Shown piece by piece: positions 1 to 64,000 of a stretch of 64,000 nt of DNA. The position numbers and the translations under genes are program-made. Source of the stretch: Chamaelirium japonicum. Taxonomy: Eukaryota; Streptophyta; Magnoliopsida; Liliales; Melanthiaceae. Under the pieces are notes generated by a model that was given only the letters and a program-made list of their open reading frames with translations, ran no database searches and was not told the origin of the DNA. Each line of letters opens with the position of its first letter. The first letter of the stretch is position 1. The stretch spans positions 80,046,579-80,110,578 of the forward strand of contig OX393556.1 of the NCBI GenBank assembly GCA_947650365.1, in the 5' to 3' direction.

Positions 1-1988
1 ATCCATTCTAATTCATTCGCACGAATGTATCCATTCTAATTCATTCATATGATCCATTCTAATTCATTCGCACTATCCATTCGAATTCACTCATACGATC
101 TATTCATTTTCATTCTTACGATCCATTCTAATTCATTCCCACGATCCATTCTAATTCATTCATATGATCCATTCTAATTCATTCGTACGATCCATTCTAA
201 TTCATTCGCACGATCCATTCTAATTCATTCATACGATCCATTCTAATTCATTCCTATAATCTATTCTAATTCTTCACACGAATGTATCCATTCTAATTCA
301 TTCGTACGATCCAATCTAATTCATTCGCACGATCGATTCTAATTCATTCATACAATCCATTCTAATTCATTCGTACGATCCATTCTAATTCATTCGCACA
401 ATCTATTCTAATTCATTCATACGATCCATTCTAATTCATTCGTACGATCCATTCTAATTCATTAATACGATCCAATCTAATTCATTCATACGATCCATTC
501 TAATTCCTTCGTACGATCCATTCTAATTCATACAATCCATTCTATTTCTTTCATACGATCCATTCTAATTCATTCGTACGATCCATTCTAATTCATTCGC
601 ATGAATGTATCCATTATAATTCATTCGTACGATCCATTGTAATTCATTCGTACGATCCATTCTAATTCATTCATACGATCCATTCTAATTCATTCGCACG
701 AATGTATCCATTCTAATTCATTCGTACGATCCATTCTAATTCATTCGCACGATCCATTCTAATTCATTCATACATTCCATTCTAATTCTTTCACACAATC
801 CATTCTAATTCATTTGTACGATGCATTCTATTTCATTCGTACGATCCATTCTAATTCATTCGTACGATCCATTCTAATTCATTCGCACGATCCATTCTAA
901 TTCATTCGTACGATCCATTCTAATTCATTCGTACGATCCAATCTAATTCATTCGTACGATCCATTCTAATTCATTCGTACGATCTATTCTAATTCATTCG
1001 CACGATCCATTCTAATTCATTCATACGATCCATTCTAATTCATTCATACGATCCATTCTAATTCATTCGTACGATCCATTCTAATTCATTCGCACGATCT
1101 ATTCTAATTCATTCGTACGATCCATTCTAATTCATTCATACGATCCATTCTAATTCCATCGTACGATCCATTCTAATTCCTTAGTACGATCCATTCTAAT
1201 TCATTCGTATGATCCCTTCTAATTCATTCGTACGATCCATTCTAATTCCTTCGTACAATCAATTCTAATTCATACGATCCATTCTATTTCATTCATACGA
1301 TCCATTCTAATTCATTCTCACGATCCAATCTAATTCATTCATAAGATCCATTTTAATTCATTCGCACAATCTATTCTAATTCATTCATACGATCCATTCT
1401 AATTCATTCGTACGATCCATTCAAATTCATTCGCACGATCCATTCTAATTCATTCGCATGAATGTATCCATTCTAATTCATTCGTATGTATCCATTCTAA
1501 TTCATTCGTACGATCCATTCTATTTCATTCATACGATCCATTCTTACTCATTCATACGATTCATTCTAATTCATAAGTACGATCCATTCTAATTCATTTG
1601 CACGATCCATTCTAATTCAGTCGTACGATCCATTCTAATTCAGTCGCACAATCTATTCTATTTCATTCGTACGATCCATTCTAATTCATTCGTACGATCC
1701 ATTCTAATTCATTCGTACGATCCATTCTAATTCATTCGCACGATCCATTCTAATTCATTCATACGATCCATTCTAAGTCATTCGTACGATCCATTCTAAT
1801 TCATTCGCACGATCCATTCTAATTCATAATTACAATCTATTCTAATTCATTCATACGATCCATTCTAATTCATTCGTACAATCCATTCTATTTTGTTCGT
1901 ATGATCCATTCTTACTCATTCGTACGATCCATTCTAATTCATTCGTACGATCCATTCTAATTCATTCGCACGAATGTATCCATCCTTT
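1..1988 (+). repeat. Forward satellite block, open at left window edge
   Basis: About 85 units read ATTCTAATTC on the + strand, with scattered 28 bp GAATGTATCC units (near 24, 283, 603, 704, 1,460 and 1,974). It ends in an aberrant CATCCTTTGC unit that leads into the first inversion. Confidence 0.95.
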
Positions 1989-1993
1989 GCACG

Positions 1994-2301
1994 AATGGAT
2001 ACATTCATGGGAATGAATTAGAATGGATTGTACGAATGAAATAGAATGGATCGTACGAATGAATTAGAATGGATACAATCGTGCGAATGAATTAGAATGG
2101 ATCGTACGAATGAATTAGAATGGATACATTCGTGCGAATGAATTAGAATAGATTGTGCGAATGAATTAGAATGGATCGTACGAATGAATTAGAATGGATT
2201 GTATGAAGGAATTAGAATGGATACATTCGTGCGAATGAATTAGAATGGATCGTACGAATGAATTAGAATAGATTGTGCGAATGAATTAGAATGGATCATA
2301 C
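1994..2301 (-). repeat. Reverse satellite block
   Basis: Units read GAATTAGAATGG. The block opens with a CATGGGAATG unit, which is the reverse complement of a marker of the 321 bp higher-order phrase. Confidence 0.93.
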
Positions 2302-2350
2302 GTACGAATGTATCCATTCTAATTCCTTCGTACGAATGGATCCATTCTAA
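2302..2350 (+). repeat. Short forward insert of two units
   Basis: Two forward units between reverse blocks. The right edge is a perfect palindrome centred on AATT. Confidence 0.88.
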
Positions 2351-2362
2351 TTAGAATGGATC
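2339..2362. repeat. Perfect 24 bp palindrome at an orientation switch
   Basis: The core TCCATTCTAATTAGAATGGA (2,341-2,360) is exactly self-complementary and gains two more paired bases on each side. Forward units change to reverse units exactly at the AATT dyad, with no spacer. Confidence 0.95.
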
Positions 2363-3545: not shown

Positions 3546-4131
3546 TAATTCTAATTCATTCGTACGATCCATTCTATTTCATTCGTACGATCCATTCGAA
3601 TTCATTAATACGATCCAATCTAATTCATTCATACGATCCATTCTAATTCCTTCGTATGAATGAATTAGAAGGATCGTGCGAATGAATTAGAATGGATCGT
3701 GCGAATGATTTAGAATGGATCGTATGAATGAATTAGAATGGATCGTGCGAATGAATTAGAATGGATCGTATGAATGAAATAGAATGGATCGTATGAATTA
3801 GAATGGATCGTACGAAGGAATTAGAATGGATCGTATGAATGAATTAGATTGGATCATATTAATGAATTAGAATGGATTGTACGAATGAATTAGAATGAAT
3901 CGTACGAATGAGTAAGAATGGATCGTATTAATGAATTAGAATTGATCGTGCGCACGATCCATTTTTATTCATTCATACAATCCATTCTAATTCATTCGCA
4001 CAATCCATTCGAATTCACTCATACGATCCATTCAAATTCACTCATATGATCCATTCTAATTCATTCGCACGATCCATTCTAATTCATTCATACAATCGAT
4101 CCAATCTAATTCATTCATACGATCCATTCTA
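3546..4131. repeat. Mosaic of three short blocks (F, R, F)
   Basis: Forward 3,546-3,654, reverse 3,655-3,950, forward 3,951-4,131. The last switch, near 4,130, is CCATTCTAATGGATC, where a forward unit is cut after CTAA and continues as a reverse unit. Confidence 0.9.
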
Positions 4132-4886
4132 ATGGATCGTACAAATGAATTAGAATGGATCGTATGAATGAATTCGAATGGATCGTACGAAGTAATTAGA
4201 ATGGATCGTACGAAGGAATTAGAATGGATCGTATGAATGAATTAGAATGATTCGTGCAAATGAATTAGAATGGATCGTATTAATGAATTAGAATGGATCG
4301 TATGAATGAATTAGAATGGATCGTGCGAATGAATTAGAATGGATCGTACGAATGAATTAGAATGGATCGTTTGAATGAATTAGAATGGATCGTGCGAATG
4401 AATTAGATTGGATCGTCCGAATGAATTAGAATGGATCGTGCGAATGAATTAGAATGGATCGTGCGAATGAAATATAATGGATACATTCGTGCGAATGAAT
4501 TAGAATGGATCGTACGAATGAATTAGAATGGATCGTGCGAATGAAATAGAATGGATACATTCGTGCGAATGAATTAGAATGGATCGTATAAATGAATTAG
4601 AATGGATCGTACAAATGAAATAGAATTAGAATGGATCGTATGAATGAATTAGAATGGATCGTGCGAATGAATTAGAATGGATAGTACGAATGAATTAGCA
4701 TCGTATGAATGAATTAGACTGGATACATGCGTACGAATGAATTAGAATGGATCATACGAAAGAATCGTACGAATGAATTAGAATGGATCGTACGAATGAA
4801 TTAGAATGGATCGCGCGAAAGAATTAGAATGGATCGTACGAAGGAATTAGAATGGATCGTACGAAGGAATTAGAATGGATCGTACG
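4127..4886 (-). repeat. Reverse satellite block
   Basis: Reverse units running into copy 1 of the 1,588 bp duplication, which begins at about 4,391. A shortened unit with GAATTAGCATCG at 4,693 is a useful landmark shared with the second copy. Confidence 0.93.
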
Positions 4887-5978
4887 AATGTATCCATTCC
4901 AATTCACTAGCACGATCGTACGAATTAATTAGAATGGATCGTGCGAATGAATTAGAATGGATTGTATAAATGAATTAGAATGGATCGTGCGAATGAATTA
5001 GAATGGATCGTACGAATGAATTAGAATGGATCGTGCAAAAGAATTAGAATGGATTGTATGAATGAATTAGAATGGATCGTGCGAATGAATTAGAATGGAT
5101 CGTACGAATGAATTAGAATGAATCGTACGAATGAATTAGAATGGATACTTTCGTGCAAATGAATTAGAATGGATCATGCGAATGAATTAGAATGGATCGT
5201 ATGAATGAATAAGAATGGATCGTACGAATGAAATAGAATAGATCGTACGAATGAATTCGAATTGATTGTGCTAATGAATTAGAATTGATCGTACGAATGA
5301 ATTAGAATAGATTATGCGAATGAATTAGAACGGATCGTACGAATGAATTAGAATGGATCGTACGAATGAATTAGATTGGATCGTATGAATGAATTAGAAT
5401 GGATCGTACGAATGAATTAGAATGGATACATTCATGAAAGAATTAGAATGGATCGTATGAATGAATTAGAATGGATCGTATGAGTGAATTAGAATGGATC
5501 GTACGAATGAATTAGAATGGATTGTACGAATGTATCCATTCTAATTCATTCGTACGATCCTTTCTAATTCCTTCGTACGGATCCATTCTAATTCCTTCGT
5601 ACGATCCATTCTAATTCCTTCATACGATCTATTCTAATTTCATTCGTATGATCCATTCTAATTCCTTCTTACGATCAATTCTTATTCATTCCCATGAATG
5701 TATCCATTCTAATTTATACGTACGATCCATTCTAATTCATTTATACATACGATCCATTCTAATTCATTACATTCGTGCGAATGAATTAGAATAGATCGTT
5801 TGTATGAATTAGAATGGATTGTGCGAATGAATTAGAATGGATCGTACGAATGAATTAGAATGGATCGTATGAATGAATTAGAATGGATCGTACAAAGGAT
5901 GGATACATTCGTACGAATGAATTAGAATGGATCGTACTAATGAATTAGAATGGGTCGTGTGAAAGAATTAGAATGGAT
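4391..5978. repeat. 1,588 bp segmental tandem duplication, copy 1
   Basis: The landmarks TTAGCATCGTATG (4,695), CACTAGCACGATCG (4,903), CTTCGTACGGATCC (5,571) and GTGTGAAAG (5,957) all recur exactly 1,588 bp downstream. The length is 69 units plus 1 bp. The segment contains its own orientation switches (forward 4,887-4,918 and 5,527-5,769), so they were copied with it. Confidence 0.93.
5527..5769 (+). repeat. Forward block inside duplication copy 1, with partial 321 bp phrase
   Basis: About ten forward units. From about 5,636 they carry the markers CCCATGAATGTATCC, a TATACGTACGATCC unit and TTTATACATACG of the 5' half of the 321 bp higher-order phrase. The left switch runs through a shared CGAATG. 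Confidence 0.9.
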
Positions 5979-7566
5979 CGTGCGAATGAATTAGATTGGA
6001 TCGTACAAATGAATTAGAATGGATCGTGCGAATGAATTAGAATGGATCGTGCGAATAAAATATAATGGATACATTCGTGCGAATGAATTAGAATGGATCG
6101 TACGAATGAATTAGAATAGATCGTGCGAATGAAATAGAATGGATACATTCGTGCGAATGAATTAGAATGGATCGTATAAATGAATTAGAATGGACCGTAC
6201 AAATGAAATAGAATTAGAATGGATCGTATGAATGAATTAGAATGGATCGTGCGAATGAATTAGAATGGATAGTACGAATGAATTAGCATCGTATGAATGA
6301 ATTAGACTGGATACATGCGTACGAATGAATTAGAATGGATCATACGAAAGAATCGTACGAATGAATTAGAATGGATCGTACGAATGAATTAGAATGGATC
6401 GCGCGAAAGAATTAGAATGGATCGTACGAAGGAATTAGAATGGATCGTACGAAGGAATTAGAATGGATCGTACGAATGTATCCATTCTAATTCACTAGCA
6501 CGATCGTACGAATTAATTAGAATGGATCGTGCGAATGAATTAGAATGGATTGTATAAATGAATTAGAATGGATTGTGCGAATGAATTAGAATGGATCGTA
6601 CGAATGAATTAGAATGGATCGTGCGAAAGAATTAGAATGGATTGTATGAATGAATTAGAATGGATCGTGCGAATGAATTAGAATGGATCGTACGAATGAA
6701 TTAGAATGAATCGTACGAATGAATTAGAATGGATACTTTCGTGCGAATGAATTAGAATGGATCATGCGAATGAACTAGAATGGATCGTATGAATGAATAA
6801 GAATGGATCGTACGAATAAAATAGAATAGATCGTACGAATGAATTAGAATTGATCGTGCTAATGAATTAGAATTGATCATACGAATGAATTAGAATAGAT
6901 TGTGCGAATGAATTAGAACGGATCGTACGAATGAATTAGAATGGATCGTACGAATGAATTAGATTGGATCGTATGAATGAATTAGAATGGATTGTACGAA
7001 TGAATTAGAATGGATACAATAATGAAAGAATTAGAATGGATCGTATGAATGAATTAGAATCGATCGTATGAGTGAATTAGAATGGATCGTACGAATGAAT
7101 TAGAATGGATTGTACGAATGTATCCATTCTAATTCATTCGTACGATCCATTCTAATTCCTTCGTACGGATCCATTCTAATTCCTTCGTACGATCCATTCT
7201 AATTCCTTCGTACGATCTATTCTAATTTTATTCGTATGATCCATTCTAATTCTTTCTTACGATCAATTCTTATTCATTCCCATGAATGTATCCATTCTAA
7301 TTCATACGTACGATCCATTCTAATTCATTTATACATACGATCCATTCTAATTCATTACATTCGTGCGAATGAATTAGAATAGATCGTTTGTATGAATTAG
7401 AATGGATTGTGCGAATGAATTAGAATGGATCGTACGAATGAATTAGAATGGATCATATGAATGAATTAGAATGGATCGTACAAAGGATGGATACATTCGT
7501 ACGAATGAATTAGAATGGATCGTACTAATGAATTAGAATGGATCGTGTGAAAGAATTAGAATGGAT
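5979..7566. repeat. 1,588 bp segmental tandem duplication, copy 2
   Basis: Collinear with copy 1 at a constant offset of 1,588 bp. Differences are scattered substitutions, by eye one or two per hundred bases, such as CCATTCTAATTCACTAG here against CCATTCCAATTCACTAG in copy 1. Forward sub-blocks lie at 6,475-6,506 and 7,115-7,357. Equal spacing over the whole length implies a single recent unequal exchange. Confidence 0.93.
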
Positions 7567-16507: not shown

Positions 16508-17998
16508 CGAATGTATCCATTCTAATTCATTCGTATGATCCATTCTAATTCCTTCGTACAATCCATTCTAATTCATTCGTACGATCCATTCTAATTCATT
16601 CGTATGGATACATTCGTGCGAATGAATTAGAATGGATCGTATGAATGAATTAGAATAGATTGTGCGAATGAATTAGAATGGATCGTATGTATGAATTAGA
16701 ATGGATACAGTCATGGGAATGAATTAGAATGGATCATACAAAGGAATTAGAAGAATGAATTAGAATGGATCGTGCGAATGAATTAGATTGGATCGTATGA
16801 ATGAATTAGAGTGGATACATTCGTACGAAGGAATTAGAATGGATCGTAAGAATGAATTATAATGGATACATTCGTGCGTACGATCCAATCTAATTCATTC
16901 ATACGATCCATTCTAATTCATTAATACGATCCAATCTAATTCATTCATACGATCCATTCCAATTACTATGTACGATCCTTTATAATTCATACGATCCATT
17001 CTATTTCATTCGTACGATCCATTATAATTCATTCATACGATCCATTCTAATTCATTAATACGATCCAATTTAATTCATTCATACGATCCATTCTAATTCC
17101 TTCGTACGAATGAATTAGAATGGATATATTCGTGCAAATGAATTAGAATGGATCGTACGAATGAGTAAGAATAGATCGTACGAATGAATTAGAATGGATC
17201 GTACGAATGAATTAGAATGGATACATTCGTGCGAATGAATTAGAATGGATTGTATGAATGAATTAGAATGGATCGTATGAATGAATTAGAATGGATCGTG
17301 CGAATGAATTAGAATGGATCGTGCGAATGAATTAGAATGGATCGTACGAATGAATTAGAATGGATCGTACGAATGAAATAGAATGGATCGTACGAATGAA
17401 TTAGAATGGATCGTGCGAATGAAATAGAATGGATTTGCACGAATGTATCTATTCTAATTCATTCGTACGATCCATTCTAATTCAATCGTACAATCCATTC
17501 TAATTCATTCGCACGATCCATTCGAATTCACTCATACGATCCATTCTAATTCATTCAAACGATCCATTCTAATTCATTCGCACGAATGTATGGATTGTAC
17601 GAATGAATTAGAATGAATCATTTGAATGAAATAGAATGGATTGTACGACGGAATTAGAATGGATCATACGAATGAAATAGAATGGATCGTAATCTAATTC
17701 ATTGATATGATCCATTCTAATTCATTCGCACAATCTATTCTAATTCATTCGTACGATCCATTCTAATTCATTCGTACGATCCATTCTAATTCATTCGCAC
17801 GAATGTATCCATTCTAATTCATTCGTACGATCCATTCCAATTCATTCACACAATCTATTCTAATTCATTCGTACGATCAATTCTAACTCATTAGCACGAT
17901 CCATTCTAATTCATTCGTACGATCTATTCTAATTCATACGTACAATCCATTCTTACTCATTCGTATGATACATTCTAATTCATTCGCACGAATGTATC
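16508..17998. repeat. Finely interleaved mosaic of eight blocks
   Basis: F 16,508-16,605; R 16,606-16,878; F 16,879-17,107; R 17,108-17,433; F 17,434-17,590; R 17,591-17,691; F 17,692-17,998. The switch GTATGGATACATTCG at 16,603 recurs at 62,433, and GATCGTAATCTAATTC at 17,686 matches 12,727. The switch at 17,107 is CCTTCGTACGAATG, on the CGTACG dyad. Confidence 0.9.
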
Positions 17999-19265
17999 CT
18001 ACGAATGAATTAGAATGGATATATTCATGCAAATGAATTAGAATGGATCATATGAATGAATTAGAATGGATCGTACAAATGAATTAGAATGGATCGTACG
18101 AATGAATTAGAATGGATCGTACGAATGAATTAGAATGGATCATACGAATGAGTAAGAATGGATCGTATGAATGAATTAGATTGGATCATATCAATGAATT
18201 AGAATGGATCATACGAACGAATTAGAATGGATCGTACGAATGAATTAGAATGGATCGTGCGAATGAATTAGAATGGATCGTACGAATGAATTAGAATGGA
18301 TATATTCGTACGAAGGAATTAGAATGGATCGTACGAATGAATTAGAATGGATACATTCGTGCGAATGAATTAGAATGGATCGTATGAATGAATTAGAATG
18401 GATCGTACGAATGAATTAGAATGGATCGTACGAATGAATTAGAATGGATCGTACGAATGAATTAGAATGGATCGCATGAATGAATTAGATTGGATCGTAT
18501 AAATGAATTAGAATGGATCGTACGTATGAATTAGTATGGATACATTCATGGGAATGAATTAGAATGGATCGTACGAATGAATTAGAATGGATACATTCGT
18601 GCGAATGAATTAGAATGGATTATACGAATGAATTAGAATGGATCGTATGAATGAATTAGAATGGATCGTGCGAATGAATTAGAATGGATCGTACGAATGA
18701 ATTAGAATGGATCGTGCGAATGAATTAGAATGGATCGTACGAATGAATTAGAATGGATCGTATGAATGAATTAGAATGGATCGTACGAATGAATTAGAAT
18801 TGATCGTATGAATGAATTAGATTGGATCATACGAATAAGTAAGAATGGATCGTATGAATAAATTAGAGTGGATCGTGTTTTTTCGTACTAATGAATTAGA
18901 ATGGATTGTATGAATGAATTAGAATGGATACATTCGTGCGAAAGAATTAGAATGGATCGTATGAATGAATTAGATTGGATCGTATGAATGAATTAGAATG
19001 GATCATGCGAAGGAATTAGAATGGATACATTCGTGCGAATGAATTAGAATGGATCGTGCGAATGAATTAGAATGGATCGAATTAGAATGGATACATTCAT
19101 TCGAATGAATTAGAATGGATCATACGATTGAGTAATAATGGATTGTACGAATGAAATAGAATAGATCGTATGGAATGGATCGTACAAAGTAATTAGAATG
19201 GATCGTACAAAGGAATTAGAATGGATCATACGAATGAAATATAATGGGTCGTACAAAGGAATTAC
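17999..19265 (-). repeat. Reverse satellite block with the T6 marker
   Basis: About 54 reverse units. The rare T6 variant lies at 18,864-18,893. It ends in GTACAAAGGAATTACACG, a switch inside a unit. Confidence 0.93.
18864..18893 (+). repeat. Rare T6-tract variant, direct copy 1
   Basis: A 30 bp stretch, TAGAGTGGATCGTG then TTTTTTCG then a CTAATG ending, in which T6 interrupts the normal core. A near-identical copy is at 51,781-51,810 and an inverted one at 13,101-13,130. Confidence 0.9.
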
Positions 19266-23860: not shown

Positions 23861-25529
23861 ATCCATTCTATTTCATTCGTACGATCCATTCTAATTCATT
23901 CATACGATCTATTCTTACTCATTCGTACGATCCATTCTTACTCATTCGTATGATCCATTCTAATTCATTCGCATGAATTCATCCATTCTAATTCATTCGT
24001 ACGATCCATTCTATTTCATTCGTACGATCCATTCTAATTCATTTGCACGATCCATTATAATTCTAATTCCTTCGTTCGTACGATCCATTCTAATTCCTAC
24101 GTACGATCCATTCTATTTCATTCATACGTTCCAATCTAATTCATTCATACGATCCATTCTAATTCATTCGCACGAATGTAACAATTCTAATTCATTCGTA
24201 TGATCCATTCTATTTCATTCGTACGATCCATTCTTACTCATTCTTACGATCCATTCTAATTCATTCGCGCTATCCATTCTAATTCATTCGTACAATCCAT
24301 TCTTACTCATTCGTATGATCCATTCTAATTCATTCGCACGAATGTATCTATTCTAGTTCATTCGTACGATCCATTCAAATTCATTCGTATGATCTATTCT
24401 AATTCATTCGTACGATCCATTCTAATTCGTTCATACGATCCATTCTAATTCTTTCGCACGAATGTATCCATTCTAATTCATTCGTACGTTCCATTCTAAT
24501 TCATTCGCACGAATGTATCCATTCTAATTCATTCGTACGATCTATTCTAATTCATTCGCACAATCTATTCTAATTCATTCGTATAATCCATTCTATTTCA
24601 TTCGTACGATCCATTCTTACTCATTCGTACGATCCATTCTAAATCATTCGTACGATCCATTCTAATTCATTTGCACGATCCATTCTAATTCATTCGTACA
24701 ATCCATTCTAATTCATTTGCACGAATATATCCATTCTAATTCATTCGTACGATCCATTCTAATTCATTTATATGATCCATTCTAATTCATTCATACAATC
24801 CATTCTAATTCATTCACATGATCCATTCTAATTCATTCGTACGTTCCGTTCTAATTCATTAGCACGATCCATGCTAATTCATTCGCACGATCCATTCTAA
24901 TTCATTCGCACGAATGTATCCATTCTAATTCATTCGTATGATCCATTCTAATTCATTCGCATGAATGTATCCATTCTAATTCATTCCTACGATCCATTCT
25001 AATTCATTCGTACAATCCATTCTAATTCATTCATACAATCGATTCTAATTCATTCGTACAATTCATTTTAATTCATTCGCACGATCCATGCTAATTCATT
25101 CCTACGATCCATTCTATTTCATTCGTACGATCCATTATTATGATCCATTCTAATTCATTCGTACGATCCATTCTAATTCATTCGTACAATCCATTCTACT
25201 TCATTCGTACGATCCAGTCTTACTCATTCGTACTCGTACGATCCATTCTAATTCATTCGCACGAATGTATCCAGATCCATTCTAATTCGTTCGCACGATC
25301 CATTCTAATTCATTCGTACAATCCATTCTTACTCATTCGTACGATCCATTCTAATTCATTCGCACGAATGTATCCATTCTAATTCATTCGTACGATCTAT
25401 TCTAATTCATTCGTACGATCCATTCTAATTCATTCGTACGATCCATTCTAATTCATAAGTATGATCCATTCTATTTCATTCGTACGATCCATTCTAATTC
25501 ATTCGTATGATCCATTCTAATTCCTTCGT
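23861..25529 (+). repeat. Forward satellite block
   Basis: About 71 forward units, rich in CTATTTC and CTTACTC units. These remove the TAA that normally closes one of every three units in a given frame, so open frames of 76 and 80 codons appear at 23,973-24,203 and 25,140-25,382. Both translate to the satellite periodic peptide only. A partial 321 bp phrase lies near 24,755-24,875. Confidence 0.94.
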
Positions 25530-26479
25530 ACGAATGAATTAGAATGGATTGTATGAATGAATTAGAATGGATCGTATAAATAAAATAGAATGGATCGTAC
25601 GCATGAATTAGAATGGATACATTCATGGGATCGTACGAATGAATTAGAATTGATACATTCGTGCAAAAGAATTAGAATGGATTGTATGAATGAATTAGAT
25701 TGGATCGTGCAAATGAATTAGAATGGATCGTACGAATGAATTAGAATGGATACATTCGTGCGACTGAATTAGAATGGATTGTACGAATGAATTAGAAAGG
25801 ATCGTACGAATGAATTAGAATGGATCTTATAAATGAAATAGAATGGATACATACGAATGAATTAGAATGGATCGTATGAATGAATTAGATTGGATCGTAT
25901 GAATGAATTAGAATGGATCGTGCGTCGTACGAATGAATTAGAATGGATATTATTAATGAATTAGAATAGATCGTGCGAATGAATTAGATTGGATCGTCCG
26001 AATGAATTATAATGGATTGTATGAATGAATTAGAATGGAAACATACAAATGAATTAGAATGGATCGTATGAATAAATTAGATTGGATACATTCGTGCGAA
26101 TGAATTAGAATGGATCATGCGAATGAATTAGAATTGATCGTACGAATGAATTAGAATGCGTACGAATGACTTAGAATGGATCGTACGAATGAATTAGAAT
26201 GGATCGTACGAATGAAATAGAATGGATTATACGAGTGAATTAGAATGGATCGTATGCATTCGTGCGAATGAGTTAGAATGGATCGTATGAATGAATTAGA
26301 ATGGATCGTATGAGTGAATTACAATGGATCGTGCGAATGAATTAGAATGGATCATACGAAAGAATTAGATTGGATCGTATGAATGAATTAGAATGGATCG
26401 TGCGAATGAATTAGAATGGATCGTACGAATGAACTAGAATAGATTGTGCGAATGAATTAGAATGGATCGCACGAATGAA

Positions 26480-26710
26480 TTAGAATGGATCGTGCGAATG
26501 AATTAGAATGGATCGTACGAATGAATTAGAATGGAACGTACGAATGAATTAGAATGGATCGTACGAATGAATTAGAATGGATCGTGCGAATGAATTAGAA
26601 TGGATCGTACGAATGAATTAGAATGGATCGTAGGAATGAATTAGAATGGAACGTACGAATGAATTAGAATGGATCGTACGAATGAATTAGAATGGATCGT
26701 ACGAATGAAT
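26480..26710 (-). repeat. Locally homogenised run with 115 bp period
   Basis: GGAACGTACG at 26,533 and 26,648 is spaced exactly five units (115 bp) apart, and the units between are almost free of variants. This suggests a recent local amplification. Confidence 0.85.
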
Positions 26711-27898
26711 TAGAATGGATCGTACGAATGAATTAGAAAGGATACATTCATGCGAATGAATTAGAATGGATCGTGCGAATGAATTAGAATGGATCGTACG
26801 AATGAATTAGAATATATCGTATGAATGAATTAGAATAGATTGTGCGAATGAATTAGAATGGATCGTATGAATGAATTAGATTGGATCGTATGAATGAATT
26901 AGAATGGATCATGCGAATGAATTAGAGTAGAATAAGAATGGATCGTATGAATTAGAATGGATCGTACGAAGGAATTAGAATGGATCGTATGAATGAATTA
27001 GATTGGATCGTGCGAATGAATTAGAATGGATCGTACGAATGAATTAGAATAGATTGTGCGAATGAATTAGAATGGATCGTACGAATGAATTAGAATGGAT
27101 CGTAATAATGGATCGTACGAATGAAATAGAATGGATAGTACGAATGAATTAGCATGGATCGTGCGAATGAATTAGAATGGATCGTACGAATGAATTAGAA
27201 TGGATCATATGAATGAATTAGAATAGATTGTGCGAATGAATTAGAATGGATCGTACGAATGAATTAGAATGCATACATTCGTGCGAATGAATTAGAATGG
27301 ATCGTACGAATGAGTAAGAATGGATCGTACATTCGTTCAAATGAATTAGAATGGATTGTATGAATGAATTAGATTGGAACGTATAAATGAATTAGAATGG
27401 ATTGTACGAAGGAATTAGAATGGATCGTATGAATGAATTAGAATTGATACATACGAATGAATTAGAATGGATCATATGAATGAATTAGATTAGATCGTAT
27501 GAATGAATTAGAATGGATCGTGCGTCGTAGGAATGAATTAGAATGGATCGTATTAATGAATTAGAATGGATCGTGCGAATGAATTAGAATGGATCGTACA
27601 AATGAATTAGAATGGATCGTATGAATGAGTTAGAATGGATACGTACGAATGAATTACAATTGATCGTATAAATGAATTAGATTGGATCGTATGAATGAAT
27701 TAGATTGGATCGTATGAATGAATTAGAATGGATCGTGCAAATGAATTAGAATGGATCGTGCGAATGAATTAGAATAGATCGTACGAATGAATTAGAATGG
27801 ATACATTCGTGCAAAAGAAATAGAATGGATTGTATGAATGAATTAGAATGGATCGTGCTAATGAATTAGAATGGATCGTATGAATGAATTAGAATGGA

Positions 27899-28219
27899 TC
27901 GTAATAATGGATCGTACGAATGAAATAGAATGGATCGTAAGAATGAATTAGCATGGATCGTGCTAATGAATTAGAATGGAACGTACGAATGAATTAGAAT
28001 AGATTGTGTGAATGAATTAGAATGGATTGTACGAATGAATTAGAATGGATAAATTCGTGCGAATGAATTAGAATGGATTGTATGAATGAATTAGATTGGA
28101 TCATATAAATGAATTAGAATGGATCATACGTATGAATTAGAATGGTTACATTCATGGGAATGCATAAGAATGGATCGTACGAAGGAATTAGAATGGATCA
28201 TACGAATGAAATAGAATGG
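27899..28219 (-). repeat. 321 bp higher-order phrase, full reverse copy
   Basis: From TCGTAATAATGG to GAAATAGAATGG. Read on the complement it has the same ordered series of variants as 42,826-43,146 and exactly the same length: eleven 23 bp units, two 28 bp units and one 12 bp remnant. The flanking reverse-to-forward junction and about 65 bp beyond it also match the other copy. Confidence 0.9.
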
Positions 28220-28221
28220 AT

Positions 28222-28881
28222 CCGTACGATCCATTCTAATTCATTCGCACGATCCATTCTAATTCATTAATACGATCCAATCTAATTCATTCATACGATC
28301 CATTCTAATTCATTCATACGATCCATTCTAATTCATTCGTATGATCCATTCTAATTCATTCGCACGATCCATTCTAATTCATTAATACGATCCATTCTAA
28401 TTCATTCGCACGATCCATTCTATTTCATTCGTACGATCCATTCTTACTCATTCGTACGATCCATTCTAATTCATTTACACGAATATATCCATTCTAATTC
28501 ATTCGTACGATCCATTCTAATTCCTTCGTACGATCCATTCTAATTCATTCGCACGAATGTATCCATTCTAATTCATTTGTATGATCCATTCTAATTCATT
28601 TGTACGATCCAATCTAATTCATTCATACGATCCAATCTAATTCATTCGCACGATCTATTCTAATTCATTCATACGATCCAATCTAATTCATTCATACGAT
28701 CCATTCTAATTCATTCGCACGAATGTATCCATTCTAATTCATTCGTACGATCCATTCTAATTCATTCATACAATCCATTCTAATTCATTCGTACGATCCA
28801 TTCTAATTCATTCGAACGATCCATTCTAATTCATTCATATGATCCAATCTAATTCATTCGTACGATCCATTCATTCGTACG
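28222..28881 (+). repeat. Forward satellite block
   Basis: About 28 forward units. It begins at TCCGTACGATCC, the same switch as at 42,820 but with one extra C, and ends in a truncated CATTCATTCGTACG unit. Confidence 0.92.
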
Positions 28882-31178: not shown

Positions 31179-32053
31179 CTCTAATTCATTCGCACGAATG
31201 TATCCATTCTAATTCATTCGTACGATCCATTCTAATTCATTCGCACGATCCATTCTAATTCATTCATACAATCGATCCAATCTAATTCATTCATACGATC
31301 CATTCTAATTCATTCGCACGAATGTATCCTTCCTTTGTACGATCCATTCTAATTCATTCATACGATCCATTCTAATTCATTCGTACGATCCATTCTAATT
31401 CATTCGCACGATCCATTCTAATTCATTCATACGATCCAATCTAATTCATTCGCACGATCCATTCTAATTCATTCATACGATCCATTCTAATTCATTCATA
31501 CAATCCATTCTAATTCTTTCACACGATCCATTCTAATTCATTCGTACGATCCATTCTAATTCATTCGCACGATCCAATCTAATTCATTCGCGCGATCCAT
31601 TCTAATTCATTCATACGATCCAATCTAATTCATTTGCACGAATATATCCATTCTAATTCAATCGTATGATCCATTCTAATTCATTCGTACGATCCATTCT
31701 AATTCATTCGCACAATCTATTCTAATTCATTCGTACGATCCATTCCAATTCATTCGCACGATCAATTCTAATTCATTCACACAATCTATTCTAATTCATT
31801 CGTACGATCCATTCTAATTCATTCGTACGATCCATTCTAATTCATTCGCACGATCCATTCTAATTTATTCGCACGATCCATTCTAATTCATTCATACGAT
31901 CCATTCTAATTCATTCGCACGAATGTATGCATTCTAATTCATTCGTACGATCCATTCTGATTCATTCGCACAATCTATTCTAATTCCTTCGTACGATCCA
32001 TTCTAATTCAATCGTATGATCCATTCTAATTCATTCGCACGAATGTATCCATT
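31179..32053 (+). repeat. Forward satellite block
   Basis: About 37 forward units. Its right end (from about 31,920) begins copy A of the large duplication. The CGAATGTATCCTTCCTTTG variant at 31,318 is the forward form of the GTACAAAGGATGG units seen elsewhere. Confidence 0.93.
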
Positions 32054-32608
32054 CGTGTGAATGAATTAGAATGGATCATACGATTAAATAAGAATGGATC
32101 GTACGAATGAAATAGAATGGATTGTACGAATGAATTAAAATGGATCGTACGAATGAATTAGAAAGGATCGCACAAATGAATTAGAATGGATCATACGAAT
32201 GAATTAGAATGAATTATACAAAGGAATTAGAATGGATTGTATGAATGAATTAGAATGGATCGTATGAATGAATTAGAATGGATCGTACGAAGGAATTAGA
32301 ATGGATCGTACGAAGGAATTAGAATGGATCGTACGAATGAATTAGAATAGATCGTACGAATGAATTAGAATGGATACATTCGTGCGAATGAATTAGAATG
32401 GATCGTGCAAATTAATTAGAATGGCTCGTACGAATGAATTAGAATGGATCATACGAATGAATTAGAATGGATCATACGAAGGAATTAGAATGGATCGTAC
32501 GAAGGAATTAGAATGGATCGTATGAAGGAATTAGAATGGATCGTACGAATAAATTAGAATAGATTGTACGAATGAATTAGAATGGATCGTACGAATGAAT
32601 TAGAATGG

Positions 32609-32705
32609 ATACATTCGTGCAAATGAATTAGAATGGATCGTACGAATGAGTAAGAATGGATCGTACGAATGAAATAGAATGGATTGTACGAATGAATTAG
32701 AATAG
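32609..32705 (-). repeat. 97 bp four-unit phrase, reverse copy in duplication A
   Basis: Intact order and length, followed directly by the GATTCATTCGAATG remnant. In copy B the corresponding phrase has one extra GAAATAG unit. Confidence 0.9.
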
Positions 32706-34098
32706 ATTCATTCGAATGAATAAGAATGGTTCGTGTGAAAGAATTAGAATGGATTGTATGAATGAATTAGAATGGATCGTATGAATGATGAATTAGAATG
32801 GATCGTACGAATGAGTAAGAATAGATCTTACGAATGAATTAGAGTGGATACATTCCGTACGATCCATTCTAATTCATTCATATGATCTATTCTAATTTAT
32901 TCATACAATCCATTCTAATTCATTCGTACGAAGAAATTAGAATGGATCGTACGAATGAATTAGAATGGATCGTACGAATGAATTAGAATGGATCGTACGA
33001 AGGAATTAGAATGGATCATACGAATGAATTAGAATGGATACATTCGTGCGAATGTATCCATTCTAATTCATTCGTACGATCCATTCTAATTCATTCGTAC
33101 GATCCAATGAATTAGAATAGATTGTGCGAATGAATTAGAATAGATCGTGCGAATGAATTAGATTGGATCGTACGAATGAAATAGAAAAGATCGTACGAAT
33201 GAATTAGAATGGATCGTACGAAGGAATTAGAATGGATCGTACGAATGAATTAGAATGGATTGTGCGAATGAATTAGAATGGATCGTACGAATGAATTAGA
33301 ATGGATCGTACGAAGGAATTAGAATGGATCGTACGAAGGAATTAGAATGTATCCATTCTAATTCATTCATACAATCTATTCTAATTCATTCGTACGATCC
33401 ATTCTAATTCATTCGTACAATCCATTCTATTTCATTCGTACGATCCATTCTTACTCATTCGTACGATCCATTACGATCCGTTCTAATTCATTCATAAGAT
33501 CCAATCTAATTCATTTGCACGAATATATCCATTCTAATTCATTCGTACGATCCATTCTATTTCATACGTACGATCCATTCTTACTCATTCGTATGATCCA
33601 TTCTAATTCATTCGTACGATCCATTCTAATTCATTCGTACGATCCATTCTAATTTGTTCGCACGATCAATTCTAATTCATTCATACAATCCATTCTAATT
33701 CTTTCACACGATCAATTCTAATTCATTCGTACAATCCATTCTATTTCATTCGTACGATCCATTCTTACTCATTCGTACGATCTATTCTAATTCATTCGTA
33801 CGATCAATTCTAATTCATTCGTACGATCTATTCTAATTCATTCGTACGATCCATTCTAATTCATTCGTATGATCAATTAGAATGGATCGTATGAATGAAT
33901 TAGAATGGATCATACGAATGAGTAAGAATGGATCGTACGAATGAAATAGAATGGATTGTACGAATGAATTAGAATGGATCGTACGAATGAATTAGAATGG
34001 ATACATTCGTGTGAATGAATTAGAATGGATCATACGAATGAATTAGAATGGATCGTACGAATAAATTAGAATAGATCGTACATTCTAATTCCTTCGTT

Positions 34099-34138
34099 CG
34101 ATCCATTCTAATTCCTTCGTACGAATTAGAATGGATCG
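34099..34138. repeat. Short inverted repeat, copy A
   Basis: Two 16 bp arms (34,099-34,114 and 34,123-34,138) around an 8 bp spacer CTTCGTAC. One mismatch interrupts further pairing that is perfect in copy B. Confidence 0.88.
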
Positions 34139-37100
34139 TACGAAGGAATTAGAATGGATCGTATGAATGAATTAGAATGGATACATTCGTGCGAATGAAT
34201 TAGAATGGATCGTATGAACGAATTAGAACGCACGAATGTATCCATTCTAATTCATTCGTACGATCCATTCAAATTCATTCGCACGATCCATTCAAATTCA
34301 TTCACACAATCTATTCTAATTCCTTTATACGATCCATTCTAATTCATTCGCACGAATGTATCCATTCTAATTCATTCGCACGATCTAGTCTAATTCTTTC
34401 GCACGAATGTATCCATTCTAATTCATTTGTACGATCCATTCTAATTCCTTCGTACGATACATTCTAATTCATTAGCACGATCCATTCTAATTCATTCGTA
34501 CAATCCATTCTTATTCATTCGTACGATCCATTCTAATTCATTCGTACGATTCATTCGTATGATCCATTCTAATTCATTCGTACGAATGTATCCACTCTAA
34601 TTCATTCATACGATCCATTCTAATTCATTCTTACGATCCATTCTAATTCCTTCGTACGATCCATTCTAATTCATTCGTACGATCCATTCTAATTCATTCG
34701 CACGATCCATTCTAATTCATTCATACGATCCATTCTAATTCATTCATACGATCTATTCTAATTCTTTCGCACGAATGTATCCATTCTAATTCATTCGCAC
34801 GAATGTATCCATTCTAATTCATTCGTACGATCCATTCTAATTCCTTCGTACAATCTATTCTAATTCATTAGCATGATCCATTCTAATTCATTCGTACGAT
34901 CCATTCTAATTCATTCGTACGATCCATTCTAATTCATTCGCACAATCTATTCTAATTCATTCGTACGATCCATTCTAATTCATTCATACAATCCATTCTA
35001 ATTCATTCGCACGATCCATTCTAATTCATTCGCACAATCTATTCTAATTCATTCATACGATCCATTCTAATTCATTCGCGCGAATGTATCCATTATAATT
35101 CATTCGTACGATCCATTCTAATTCCTTCGTACGAATGTATACACTCTAATTCATTCGTACGATCTATTCTAATTCATTCGCACGATCCATTCTAATTCAA
35201 TCGTATGATCCATTCTAATTCATTCGCATGAATGTATCTATTCGTGCGAATGAATTAGAATGGATCATATGATTAAATAAGAATGGATCGTACGAATGAA
35301 ATAGAATGGATTGTACGAATGAATTAAAATGGATCGTACGAATGAATTAGAAAGGATCGTACGAATGAATTAGAATGGATCGTACGAATGAATTAGAATG
35401 GATTATACGAAGGAATTAGAAGGGATTGTATGAATGAATTAGAATGGATCGTATGAATGAATTAGAATGGATCGTACGAAGGAATTAGAATGGATCGTAC
35501 GAAGGAATTAGAATGGATCATACGAATGAATTAGAATAGATCGTACGAATGAGTTAGAATGGATACATTCTTGCGAATGAATTAGAATGGATCGTGCGAA
35601 TTAATTAGAATGGCTCGTACGAATGAATTAGAATGGATCGTACGAATGACTTAGAATGGATCATACGAAGGAATTAGAATGGATCGTACGAAGGAATTAG
35701 AATGGATCGTACGAAGGAATTGGAATGGATCGTACGAATGAATTAGAATAGATTGTGCGAATGAATTAGAATGGATCGTATGAATGAATTAGAATGGATA
35801 CATTCGTGCGAATGAATTAGAATGGATCGTACGAATGAGTAAGAATGGATCGTACGAATGAAATAGAATGGATCGTACGAATGAAATAGAATGGATTGTA
35901 CGAATGAATTAGAATAGATTCATTCGAATGAATTAGAATGGATCGTGTGAAAGAATTAGGATGGATTGTATGAATGAATTAGAATGGATCGTATGAATGA
36001 TGAATTAGAATGGATCGTACGAATGAATTAGAATGGATCGTACGAATGAATTAGAATGGATACATTCCGTACGATCCATTCTAATTCATTCGTACGAACT
36101 ATTCTAATTTATTCATACAATCCATTCTAATTCTTTCGTACGAAGAAATTAGAATGGATCGTACGAATGAATTAGAATGGATCGTACGAATGAAATAGAA
36201 TGGATCGTATGAATGAATTAGAATGGATCGTGTGAATGAATTAGAATGGATCGTATGAATGAAATATAATAGATTGTATGAATTAGAATGGATCGTACGA
36301 ATGAATTAGAATGGATCGTATGAAGGAATTAGAATGGATCATACGAATGAATTAGAATGGGTACATTCGTGCAAATGTATCCATTCTAATTCATTCGTAC
36401 GATCCATTCTAATTCCTTCGTACGATCCAATGTATTAGAATAGATTGTGCGAATGAATTAGAATGGATCGTGCGAATGAATTAGATTGGATCGTACGAAT
36501 GAAATAGAATAGATCGTATGAATGAATTAGAATGGATCGTACTAAGAAATTAGAATGGATCGTACGAATGAATTAGAATGGATTGTGCGAATGAATTAGA
36601 ATGGATCGTACGAATGATATAGAATGGATCATACGAAGGAATTAGAATGGATCGTACGAAGGAATTAGAATGGATCGTACGAAGGAATTAGAATGTATCC
36701 ATTCTAATTCATTCATACAATCTATTCTAATTCATTCATACGATCCATTCTAATTCATTCGTACAATCCATTCTATTTCATTCGTACGATCCATTCTTAC
36801 TCATTCGTACGATCCATTACGATCCGTTCTAATTCATTCATACGATCCAATCTAATTCATTTGCACGAATATATCCATTCTAATTTATTCGTACGATCCA
36901 TTCTATTTCATTCGTACGATCCATTCTTACTCATTCGTATGATCCATTCTAATTCATTCGTACGATCCATTCTAATTCATTCGTACGATCCATTCTAATT
37001 TATTCGCACGATCAATTCTAATTCATTCATACAATCCTTTCTAATTCTTTCACACGATCCATTCTAATTCATTCGTACAATCCATTCTATTTCATTCGTT

Positions 37101-37403
37101 CGATCCATTCTTACTCATTCGTATGATCCATTCTAATTCATTCGTACGATCTATTCTAATTCATTCGTACGATCCATTCTAATTCATTCGTATGATCAAT
37201 TCGAATGGATCGTATGAATGAATTAAAATGGATCATACGAATGAGTAAGAATGAATCGTACGAACGAAATAGAATGGATTGTACGAATGAATTAGAATGG
37301 ATCGTACGAATGAATTAGAATGGATACATTCGTGCGAATGAATTAGAATGGTTCATACGAATGAATTAGAATGGATCGTACGAATGAATTAGAATAGATC
37401 GTA

Positions 37404-37479
37404 CATTCTAATTCCTTCGTACGATCCATTCTAATTCCTTCGTACGAATTAGAATGGATCGTACGAAGGAATTAGAATG
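37404..37479. repeat. 76 bp inverted repeat with perfect 34 bp arms
   Basis: Arms 37,404-37,437 and 37,446-37,479 are exact reverse complements around an 8 bp spacer CTTCGTAC. The left arm is forward and the right arm reverse. It is the longest perfect close inverted repeat I found. Confidence 0.92.
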
Positions 37480-37689
37480 GATCGTACGAATGAATTAGAA
37501 TGGATACATTCATGCAAATGAATTAGAATGGATAGTATGATGAATTAGAACGCACGAATGTATCCATTCTAATTCATTCGTACGATCCATTCTAATTCAT
37601 TCGCACGATCCATTCAAATTCATTCGCACAATCTATTATAATTCATTTATACGATCCATTCTAATTCATTCGCACGAATGTATCCATTC

Positions 37690-37800
37690 TAATTCATTCG
37701 CACGATCTATTCTAATTCTTTCGCACGAATGTATCCATTCTAATTCATTCGCACGATCTATTCTAATTCTTTCGCACGAATGTATCCATTCTAATTCATT
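37690..37800 (+). repeat. 51 bp tandem repeat, two copies
   Basis: The pair CACGATCTATTC (23 bp unit) plus CTTTCGCACGAATGTATCC (28 bp unit) occurs at 37,701 and 37,752, an offset of exactly 51 bp. Copy A of the large duplication has it once. Confidence 0.88.
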
Positions 37801-38129
37801 CGCACGAATGTATCCATTCTAATTCATTCGTACGATCCATTCTAATTCCTTCGTACGATCCATTCTAATTCATTAGCACGATCCATTCTAATTCATTCGT
37901 ACAATCCATTGTTATTCATTTGTACGATCCATTCTAATTCATTCGTACGATTCATTCGTATGATCCATTCTAATTCATTCGTACGAATGTATCCACTCTA
38001 ATTCATTCATACGATCCATTCTAATTCATTCTTACGATCCATTCTAATTCCTTTGTACGATCCATTCTAATTCATTCGTACGATCCATTCTAATTCATTC
38101 GCACGATCCATTCTAATTCATTCATACGA

Positions 38130-38792
38130 TCCATTCTAATTCATTCATACGATCTATTCTAATTCTTTCGCACGAATGTATCCATTCTAATTCATTCGCA
38201 CGAATGTATCCATTCTAATTCATTCGTACGATCCATTCTAATTCCTTCGTACAATCTATTCTAATTCATTAGCACGATCTATTCTAATTCATTCGTACGA
38301 TCCATTCTAATTCATTCGTATGATCCATTCTAATTCATTCGCATGATCCATTCTAATTCATTCGTACGATCCATTCTAATTCATTCGTACAATCCATTCT
38401 AATTCATTCGCACGATCCATTCTAATTCATTCACACAATCTATTCTAATTCATTCATACGATCCATTCTAATTCATTCATACGATCTATTCTAATTCTTT
38501 CGCACGAATGTATCCATTCTAATTCATTCGCACAAATGTATCCATTCTAATTCATTCGTACGATCCATTCTAATTCCTTCGTACAATCTATTCTAATTCA
38601 TTAGCACGATCTATTCTAATTCATTCGTACGATCCATTCTAATTCATTCGTATGATCCATTCTAATTCATTCGCATGATCCATTCTAATTCATTCGTACG
38701 ATCCATTCTAATTCATTCGTACAATCCATTCTAATTCATTCGCACGATCCATTCTAATTCATTCACACAATCTATTCTAATTCATTCATATG
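38130..38792 (+). repeat. 332 bp tandem duplication, two copies
   Basis: GATCTATTCTAATTCTTTCG (38,151/38,483), TTAGCACGATC (38,269/38,601) and TCACACAATC (38,431/38,763) all recur at 332 bp. That is twelve 23 bp units and two 28 bp units. Copy A carries a single version near 34,741-35,070. Confidence 0.92.
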
Positions 38793-39049
38793 ATCCATTC
38801 TAATTCATTCGCGCGAATGAATCCATTCTAATTCATTCGTACGATCCATTCTAATTCCTTCGTACGAATGTATCCACTCTAATTCATTCGTACGATCCAT
38901 TCTAATTCATTCGCACGATCCATTCTAATTCATTCGTACGATCCATTCTAATTCATTCGCACGATCCATTCTAATTCATTCGTATGATCCATTCTAATTC
39001 ATTAATACGATCCAATCTAATTCATTCATACGATCCATTCTAATTCATA

Positions 39050-40845: not shown

Positions 40846-41669
40846 ATACATTCGTGCGAATGAATTAGAATGGATCATATGAATGAGTAAGAATGGATCG
40901 TACGAATGAATTAGAATAGATCGTACGAATGAATTTGAATGGATCGTGCTAATGAATTAGAATTAATCGTATGAATGAATTAGAATAGATTGTGCGAATG
41001 AATTAGAATGGATCGTACGAATGAATTAGAATGGATACATTCGTGCGAATGAATTAGAATGGATCGTACGAATGAATTAAGATGGATCGTACGAATGAAT
41101 TAGAATAGATTGTGCGAATGAATTAGAATGGATCGTATGAATGAATTAGATTACGATCCATTCTATTTCATTCGTATGATCCATTCTAATTTCTTCGTAC
41201 AATCCATTCTATTTCATTCGTATGATTCATTCTAATTCATTCGTACAATCCATACATTCGTGCGAATGAATTAGAATGGATCGTATGACTGAATTAGAAT
41301 GGATCGTATGAGTGAATTCGAATGGATCGTGGGAACGAACTAGAATGGATTGTACGAATGAATTAGAATGGATCGTACAAATGAATTAAAATAGATACAT
41401 TCGTGCGAATCCATTCTATTTCATTCGTACGATCCATTCTTACTCATTCGTACAATCCATTCTAATTCATTCGCATACGAATGAATTAGAATGGATCATA
41501 CGAATGAATTAGAATAAATTGTGCGAATGAATTAGAATGGATCATAGGAATGATTTAGAATGGATACATTCGTGCGAATCCATTCTATTTCGTTCGTACG
41601 ATCCATTCTAATTCATTCGTACGATCCATTCTTACTCATTCGTACGATCCATTCTAATTTATTCGCATA
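40846..41669. repeat. Finely interleaved mosaic of six blocks
   Basis: R 40,846-41,153; F 41,153-41,253; R 41,254-41,410; F 41,409-41,475; R 41,476-41,579; F 41,578-41,669. The pair of switches GTGCGAATCCATTC then TTCGCATACGAATG occurs twice (41,404/41,471 and 41,573/41,664), so the last four blocks look like a tandem copy of a forward-reverse cassette of about 170-190 bp. Confidence 0.88.
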
Positions 41670-56201: not shown

Positions 56202-56346
56202 CACAATCTATTCTAATTCATTCGCACGATCCATTCTAATTCATTCATACGATCCATTCTAATTCATTCGTACAATCCATTCTAATTCATTCATATGATC
56301 CAATCTAATTCATTCATACGATCCATTCTAATTCATTCGTACAATC
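56202..56346 (+). repeat. Short forward block
   Basis: About six forward units. The left edge is GTGCGCACAATC, on the GTGCGCAC palindrome; the right edge CAATCAATTAGAATGG is a switch at AATT. Confidence 0.9.
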
Positions 56347-60747: not shown

Positions 60748-61261
60748 AGAATGAATAAGAATGGATCGTACGAAGGAATTAGAATGGATCATACGAATAA
60801 AATAGAATGGATCGTTCAAAGGAATTAGAATGGATCGTATGAATGAATTAGATTGGATCGTATGAATGAATTAGAATGGATCGTGCGAATGAATTAGAAT
60901 GGATCGTGCGAATGAATTAGAATGGATTGTATGAAGGAATTAGAATGGATCATACGAAGGAATTAGAATGGATCGTGCAAAAGAATTAGAATGGATTGTA
61001 TGAATGAATTAGAATGGATCGTGCTAATGAATTAGAATGGATCGTACGAATGAATTAGAATAGATTGTGCGAATGAATTAGAATGGATCGTACGAATGAA
61101 TTAGAATGAATCGTAATAATGGATCGTACGAATGAAATAGAATGGCTCGTACGAATGAATTAGCATGGATCGTGCTAATGAATTAGAATGGAACGTACGA
61201 ATGAATTAGAATAGATTGTGCGAATGAATTAGAATGGATCGTACGAATGAATTAGAATGGA
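60748..61261 (-). repeat. Reverse satellite block
   Basis: About 22 reverse units. From 61,111 (TCGTAATAATGG) it is a partial reverse copy of the 321 bp phrase, which abuts a forward copy of the same phrase. Confidence 0.92.
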
Positions 61262-61519: not shown

Positions 61520-62435
61520 CACAATCTATTCTAGTTCATTCGTACGATCCATTCTAATTCATTCGCACGATCCATTCTAATTCATTCGTACAATCCATTC
61601 TATTTCATTCATACGATCCATTCTAATTCATTCATACGATCCATTCTAATTCATTCGTACGATCCATTCTAATTCATTCGTACGATCCATTCTAATTCAT
61701 TCGCACGAATGCATCCATTCAAATTCATTCGTACGATCCATTCTAATTCATTCGTACGATCCATTCTATTTCATTCGTACGATCCATTCTAATTCATTTG
61801 TACGATCCATTCTAATTCCTTCGTACAATCTATTCTAATTCATTCGCACGATCCATTCTAATTCATTCGTACGATCCATTCGAATTCATTCGCACGATCC
61901 ATTCTAATTCATTCGCACAATCTATTCTAATTCATTCGCACGAATGTATCCAATCTAATTCATTTGTGCGATCCATTCTAATTCATTCGCACGATCCATT
62001 CTAATTCATTCGCACGATCCATTCGAATTCATTAATATGATCCAATCTAATTCATTCATACGATCCATTCTAATTCATTCATACAATCCATTCTAATTCT
62101 TTCACACGATCCATTCTAATTCATTCATACGATCCATTCTAATTCATTCGTACGATTCATGCTAATTCAATCCATTCTAATTCATTCGTACGATCCATTC
62201 TTACTCATTCATACAATCTATTCTAATTCATTCGCACGAATTTATCCATTCTAATTCATTCGTACGATCCATTCTAATTCATTCGCACAATCTATTCTAA
62301 TTCATTCGCATGAATGAATCCATTCTAATTCATTCGTACAATCCTTTGTATTTTATTCGTACGATCTATTCTTACTCATTCGTATGATCCATTCTACTTC
62401 ATTCGCACGAATGTATCCATTCTAATTCATTCGTA
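61262..62435 (+). repeat. Forward satellite block
   Basis: About 50 forward units with an intact 97 bp phrase at 62,320-62,416. It ends CATTCGTATGGATACATTCG, the switch also found at 16,603. Confidence 0.93.
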
Positions 62436-62829
62436 TGGATACATTCGTGCGAATGAATTAGAATAGATCGTATGAATGAGTTAGAATAGATTGTGCGAAT
62501 GAATTAGAATGGATCGTACGAATGAATTAGAATGGATACATTCGTGCGAACGAATTAGAATGGGTCGTACGAATGAATTAGAATGGATCGTACAAATGAA
62601 ATAGAATGGATTGTACGAATGAATTAGAATGGATAGTACGAATGAATTAGAATGGATCGTGTGAAAGAATTAGAATGGATTGTATGAATGAATTAGAATG
62701 GATCGTATGATTGAATTAGAATGGATACATTCGTGCGAATGAATTAGAATGGATCGTGCGAATGAAATAGAATGGATCATACGAATGAATTAGAATGGAT
62801 CATACGAATGAATTAGAATAGATTGTGCG
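62436..62829 (-). repeat. Reverse satellite block
   Basis: About 17 reverse units. The first five parallel 16,606 onward; a GAAAG/TTGTATG dimer lies near 62,650. Confidence 0.91.
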
Positions 62830-62886
62830 ACGAATGTATCCATTCTAATTCATTCGTACGATCCATTCTAATTCATTCATACGATC
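62830..62886 (+). repeat. Two-unit forward insert
   Basis: Left edge GTGCGACGAATGTATCC; right edge CATACGATCATAGATCG. Confidence 0.88.
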
Positions 62887-63712
62887 ATAGATCGTACGAA
62901 GGAATTAGAATGGATCATACGAATGAATTAGAATGAATGGATCGTACGAATGAATTAGAATGGATCGTACGAATGAATTAGAATGGATACATTTGTGCGA
63001 ATGAATTAGAATGGATCGTACGAATGAATAAGAATGGATCGTACGAATGAAATAGAATGGATTGTACGAAGGAATTAGAATGAATCATACGAATAAAATA
63101 GAATGGATCGTACGAAGGAATTAGAATGGATCGTACGAATGAATTAGAATGGATCGTACGAATGAATTAGAATGGATCGTACGAATGAAATAGAATGGAT
63201 TGTACGAATGAATTAGAATGGATCATACGAATGAATTAGCATGGATCGTGCTAATGAATTAGAATGGAACATACGAATGAATTAGAATGGATCGTAGAAT
63301 GGATCGTATGAATGAATTAGATTGGATCGTATGAATGAATTAGAATGGATCGTACGAATGAAGTAGAATAGATCGTACGAAGGAATTAGAATGGATCGTA
63401 CGAAGGAATTAGAATGGATACATTCGTGCGAATGAATTAGAATGGATCGTACGAATGAATTAGAATGGATCGTACGAATGAATTAGAATGGATCGTACGA
63501 ATGAAATAGAATGGATTGTACGAATGAATTAGAATGGATCGTACGAATGAATTAGAATGGATACATTCGTCCAAAAGAATTAGAATGGATCGTACGAATG
63601 AATTAGAATGGATCGTACGAATGAATTAGAATGGATCGGATCGTGCGAATGAATTAGAATGGATCGTATGAATGAATTAGAATGGATTGTACGAATGAAT
63701 TAGAATAGTTTC
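62887..63712 (-). repeat. Reverse satellite block
   Basis: About 35 reverse units. The stretch from GATCGTAGAATGG at 63,290 to about 63,450 matches 20,296-20,450 unit by unit. Confidence 0.92.
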
Positions 63713-64000
63713 GTACGATCCATTCTAATTCATTCCCATGAATGTATACATTGATCGTACGAATGAATTAGAATGCATTCTATTTCATTCATACGATCTA
63801 TTCTAATTCATTCATACAATCCATTCTAATTCATTCCAATTTATTCATAATTCGTACAATCTATTCTAATTCATACAATCTATTCTAATTTATTCATACG
63901 ATCCATTCTAATTCATTCGCACGAATGTATCCATTGTAATTCATTCATACGATCCATTCTAATTTATTCGCACGAATGTATCCATTCTAATTCATTCATA
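63713..64000. repeat. Right-edge mosaic, open at window edge
   Basis: F 63,713-63,752 (with CCCATGAATGTATAC), about 21 bp of reverse sequence, then F 63,774-64,000 with several shortened units (TTCCAATTTATTCATAATTC). This is the least regular stretch of the window. Confidence 0.85.

Follow-up and report, generated by a model that had tools for sequence, protein, structure and literature searches.

Frequent orientation switches in a Chio-like satellite array and their preference for a self-complementary motif

The DNA analyzed here, a single stretch of 64,000 nt (the window), consists throughout of one satellite with a period of 23 bp. The satellite changes strand 114 times, and the points at which it does so fall preferentially in a short dyad of the repeat unit and often share a few bases between the two strands. 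Judged by the published description of the repeat units, the window is almost certainly part of a Chio1/Chio2 centromere-unit array of Chionographis japonica (now listed in NCBI as Chamaelirium japonicum) or of a close relative. The preference of the junctions for the dyad and the few shared bases at the joints are an addition to this known satellite, and one that needs the whole assembly. Our high confidence in the overall explanation (a Chio array with switching at the dyad and subsequent copying) refers mainly to the identity of the array, and the switching mechanism is held more tentatively.

Results

Two unit lengths make up the array

The Chio-like array occupies positions 1..64000, on both strands in turn, and continues beyond the window on either side. 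In a circular profile model that allows units of 23 bp and 28 bp, 94.3% of the bases across the whole window agree with a unit. The lowest 60-bp window still shows 81.7% agreement, and thus no foreign insert was seen. The model places 2,731 unit ends, of which 2,380 belong to a 23-bp major unit (read on the + strand here as ATCCATTCTAATTCATTCGTACG) and 351 to a 28-bp minor unit (ATCCATTCTAATTCATTCGCACGAATGT). The two differ by 5 bp and one substitution (GTACG versus GCACGAATGT). The first-pass annotation, made from the letters alone, had described blocks built from the same 23 bp unit throughout; this is right for the major unit and overlooks the minor one. Exact copies are found on both strands, with 158 of the 23-mer on + and 219 on -, 47 of the 28-mer on + and 53 on -, and 369 (+) and 495 (-) of the 9-mer TTCGTACGA. 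The exact 23-mer had no matches in either viral_contigs or genome_contigs, and a tRNA scan of the window found no tRNA genes.

The dyad of the unit, TCGTACGA, has 849 sites in the window. Units of 28 bp are found throughout the window, and their 5 extra bp stretch the dyad to CATTCG-CA-CGAATG. These extra bases may have originated by copying of the opposite arm.

Strand changes are frequent and irregularly spaced

The circular profile model divides the window into 115 blocks with a mean length of 556 bp, and assigns 28,437 bases to the + strand and 35,563 to the - strand. At a switch cost of -7 the blocks range from 15 to 2,691 bp (median 327), which bears out the earlier description of about 115 alternating blocks from about 15 bp to 2.7 kb. 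With retrained emissions the count went from 127 to 111 blocks as the switch cost was varied over six values between -5 and -20, and a k-mer two-state model gave 121. The strand-aware repeat scan that the first-pass annotation had proposed thus yields 114 switches, versus none in a simulated one-direction array of 64 kb with the same unit profile (one array, returned as 1 block at all three costs). The first block (1..1992) is on the + strand and ends with a switch after base 1992. The longest, of 2,691 bp, lies on the - strand at 25532..28222, bounded by switches at 25531 and 28222. Block lengths are compatible with an exponential law (CV 1.04; KS p = 0.15).

Many junctions are copies of one another

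Junctions with similar surroundings recur across the window. When junctions are linked by 400-bp flanks that match to 89% or more across at least 370 aligned bases, 45 of the 114 junctions fall into 20 families, and 12 of the 30 linking pairs are inverted. The limit of 89% stands just 1.5 sd above a control of in-register window pairs drawn at random (up to 150 pairs; mean 85.4%, sd 2.4), and chance may thus account for some of the weaker families; the control maximum of 96.6% is presumably itself a duplicate pair. Stricter limits leave 17 families with 35 junctions at 92% and 9 families with 18 junctions at 95%.

Whole segments were duplicated as well. Using 40-mers that occur two to four times, we located 30 duplicated segments of at least 150 bp, of which 16 are direct and 14 inverted. 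The longest of all, a direct one with copies of about 1.5 kb, pairs 4470-5953 with 6058-7541 (span 4470..7541, + strand); each copy carries 4 switches, and the flanks of the shared junctions are 97.8-99.3% alike. Several direct duplicate pairs with runs of switches, their members some 3.2 to 3.7 kb from each other, lie within 31993..38873 (+ strand), a stretch that resembles a higher-order repeat. An inverted case is provided by the three switches at 17591, 17690 and 17999 (17591..17999), which recur about 23 kb away at 41251, 41152 and 40843 in inverse order and orientation, with flanks that are 95.0, 95.5 and 92.2% alike. Switches are therefore inherited and copied, and not all of them are separate events. 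With 45 of the 114 junctions in apparent-copy families, a count of 115 inversions overstates the number of events. The earlier proposal that a process favoring inversion has acted many times here is thus sustained with regard to repeated flipping, and its event count is inflated by copied junctions.

The copied junctions also bear on whether the switches are real. Satellites are prone to mis-assembly, and chimeric or mis-joined reads could in principle produce strand changes as artefacts of the assembly or library. However, individual junctions turn up repeatedly with flanks that have diverged (20 families, or 17 families with 35 junctions at the 92% limit), unlike artefacts, and this argues against assembly error or read chimeras. 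In addition, the published C. japonica assembly (umbrella project PRJEB58432), from which the window probably comes, was built with 58.5x HiFi reads and reports mixed orientation (PMC10264360). We regard an artefact as highly improbable.

Flanking arms and registers do not fit the simplest events

Fold-back replication was among the processes suggested by the first-pass annotation. A nascent strand that folds back and copies itself would leave long mirror-image arms at each switch. The dyad should allow single-strand hairpins: the predicted folding of single-stranded DNA gives -9.3 kcal/mol (z -4.2) for a dimer of the 28-bp unit and a less stable -2.8 kcal/mol (z -1.65) for a dimer of the 23-bp unit. 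At 60748, moreover, the arms are 97.2% alike over 150 bp. Nevertheless, 53 of the 114 junctions have 150 bp or more to each side, and in these the two arms of a junction resemble each other no more than re-paired arms do (mean 88.3% in both cases, p = 0.58). Over 500 bp the best three candidates fall short of near-identity (419, 453 and 437 identities; 25-45 mismatches and 15-28 gaps), and the copies of the 14 inverted duplicate segments lie about 2.3 kb apart at the closest. Simple fold-back replication thus finds no support, since the flanking arms are not mirror copies. Old fold-backs could be hidden if their arms have since diverged. As an explanation of the switches we consider fold-back improbable.

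Inversion in place, in which a segment between two breaks in the array is turned round, would leave the two flanks of a block in the same register. This is the case for 19 of 113 blocks, with 14.7 expected. However, when blocks are turned back, only 7 of 113 come into register at each of their two ends, versus 5.3 expected, a comparison that has low power after later events. We think it unlikely that in-place inversion accounts for the switches. Given these null results for both the arms and the restoration of register, the window gives no sign of simple fold-back or of clean inversion.

Breaks concentrate in the dyad

We took the dyad region to be unit positions 17-23 and 1, together with the insertion of the 28-bp unit. 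With junctions merged into 64 families, 75 of the 128 break sides lie within this region, compared with 37.0% of 2,916 simulated sides, although the region was defined after the junction list had been viewed, in line with the published motif. In 22 of the 64 families the dyad region takes in both break sides, compared with 12.8% of the joins when 20 arrays were simulated (p = 8e-6), and the excess over 12.8% persists under stricter merging (16 of 49 families, p = 3e-4; 11 of 39, p = 0.008). Among all 114 junctions, 58.3% of sides are in the dyad region and 31.6% of junctions have both sides there. In most families, 42 of the 64, at least one break side lies outside it.

Some junctions are arranged more precisely. 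An exact mirror register about TCGTACGA is found in 12 of 89 families, with 3.9 expected; other ways of removing duplicates give 10 of 69 (p = 8e-4), 8 of 64 (p = 0.006) and 4 of 49 (p = 0.16). The mirror class of the 28-bp unit shows no enrichment (4 of 64, p = 0.3). The insertion of the 28-bp unit lies at most 10 bp from the junction in 17 of 64 families, compared with 10% of positions, and this excess is absent at 150 bp. Junction class does not correlate significantly with the strand complementarity of the 23-bp unit (Spearman p from 0.07 to 0.42).

Junctions share a few bases between strands

For each junction we scored the overlap, that is, the bases compatible with units of both strands. 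As a control, the 83 blocks with a length of 110 bp or more were trimmed, rejoined and put through the whole model, which gave 876 random joins, and overlaps of at least 4 bp occurred in 3.5% of these. Allowing for the 28-bp unit, such overlaps occur in 26 of 89 junction families (p = 4e-17 versus the control), and in 16 of 64 (p = 6e-10) and 14 of 49 (p = 1e-9) under other de-duplications. When only the 23-bp unit is considered, the overall distribution of overlaps is not shifted (p = 0.57), and overlaps of at least 4 bp make up 12.4% versus 3.0%. The effect is smaller with register-blind clusters (13 of 58, p = 9e-7, and 5 of 27, p = 0.005, versus 4.3%). Register-blind clustering of 50-bp cores left 27 clusters at 0.88, 9 at 0.84 and 2 at 0.80, the last two being too few; it chained unlike junctions together, and we therefore adopted the same-register clusters.

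Two junctions illustrate the overlaps. A +/- junction within the dyad, at 25525..25536 (TTCGTACGAATG), has 12 bp that suit the unit of either strand, and junctions of this kind are also found at 3653, 9190 and 17107. At 5522..5532, a -/+ junction (TTGTACGAATG), 11 bp fit the units of both strands and the right side is a 28-bp unit; similar junctions are found at 4890, 16513 and 44177.

Discussion

A possible route to alternating orientation

The mechanism that we favor, tentatively and at rather less than even confidence, begins with stalling or breakage at the dyad, which is followed by microhomology-mediated switching to an opposite-strand repeat and then by duplication. The dyad TCGTACGA, which is longer in the 28-bp unit, is identical on both strands, which would let an end that has stalled or broken at this point pair with a unit in the opposite orientation. 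Replication might stall, or the DNA might break, at the dyad, and the annealing partner could be an opposite-orientation unit in the same or another array. Pairing of a few bases would then be followed by synthesis or end joining, and the direction of the array would be reversed. Later unequal exchange or gene-conversion-like copying, both direct and inverted, would multiply the junctions. Hairpin-driven exchange, another of the processes named in the first-pass annotation, gains some support from the enrichment of breaks in the dyad (22 of 64 families versus 12.8%) and from the microhomology at the junctions.

It is also possible, although we would not wager on it, that the self-complementary motif is itself a hot spot for strand switching, with broken ends re-annealing by microhomology and the 28-bp variant adding further switch points. 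If so, the motif would drive turnover of the array and its scrambled orientation, and perhaps its spread along the chromosome. The authors of a 2025 paper have suggested that hairpins of TTCGTACGA may cause breaks and ectopic repair (PMC12722358), and a review lists microhomology-mediated end joining and inverted-repeat recombination among the causes of centromeric rearrangement (PMC10813616). In the parts of the main texts covered by the literature search, we found no junction-level analysis of Chio. The switch points in the window offer a direct record with which the hairpin-break suggestion can be tested across the assembly and its 100 published centromere units.

Comparison with known satellites

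The closest known system is the CENH3-associated satellite of the holocentric C. japonica, with units Chio1 (23 bp) and Chio2 (28 bp), of which Chio1 lacks 5 bp present in Chio2 and differs from it by one substitution (Kuo et al. 2023, PMC10264360). The window has the same two monomers, a dominant one of 23 bp (2,380 of 2,731 unit ends) and a minor one of 28 bp (351 ends), and they differ by the same 5 bp and one base. Chio units carry dyad symmetries, one of them a conserved 8-bp dyad (PMC10264360), which is probably TCGTACGA, and the 9-mer TTCGTACGA is common to Chio and the related Chama satellite (PMC12722358); the window has this 9-mer on both strands as well as an 8-bp dyad. Chio arrays mix forward and reverse orientation (PMC10264360) and are described as having 'frequently alternating orientation' (PMC12722358), as in the window with its 114 intermingled switches. 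Thus, the headline observation of the first-pass annotation was already in print. Compared by published description rather than by the letters of the monomers, the window shows no difference from Chio in the parts of these sources that describe it; six strings from the unit had no match in the paper texts. By analogy with Chio (PMC10264360, PMC12722358), the array would have a CENH3-bound centromere role.

Two other systems differ from the window in informative ways. Chama, the 60-bp centromeric satellite of the sister species Chamaelirium luteum, shares TTCGTACGA and the potential to form hairpins, yet it is consistently oriented (PMC12722358), whereas the window switches 114 times. The window is not a Chama array, which is ruled out by the period of 23 together with the switches. 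The uniform orientation of Chama despite the shared 9-mer indicates that the dyad alone is insufficient for switching. The TmSat1 and TmSat2 satellites of Tribolium madens form macro-dyads, with inverted subarrays and recurring inversion sites (PMC13081366), and in this they resemble the window. However, their monomers are longer, and most of their arrays consist of two subarrays of several kb (PMC13081366). The inversion sites of T. madens are also highly conserved (PMC13081366), whereas the window contains many types of junction, at about one switch per 0.56 kb.
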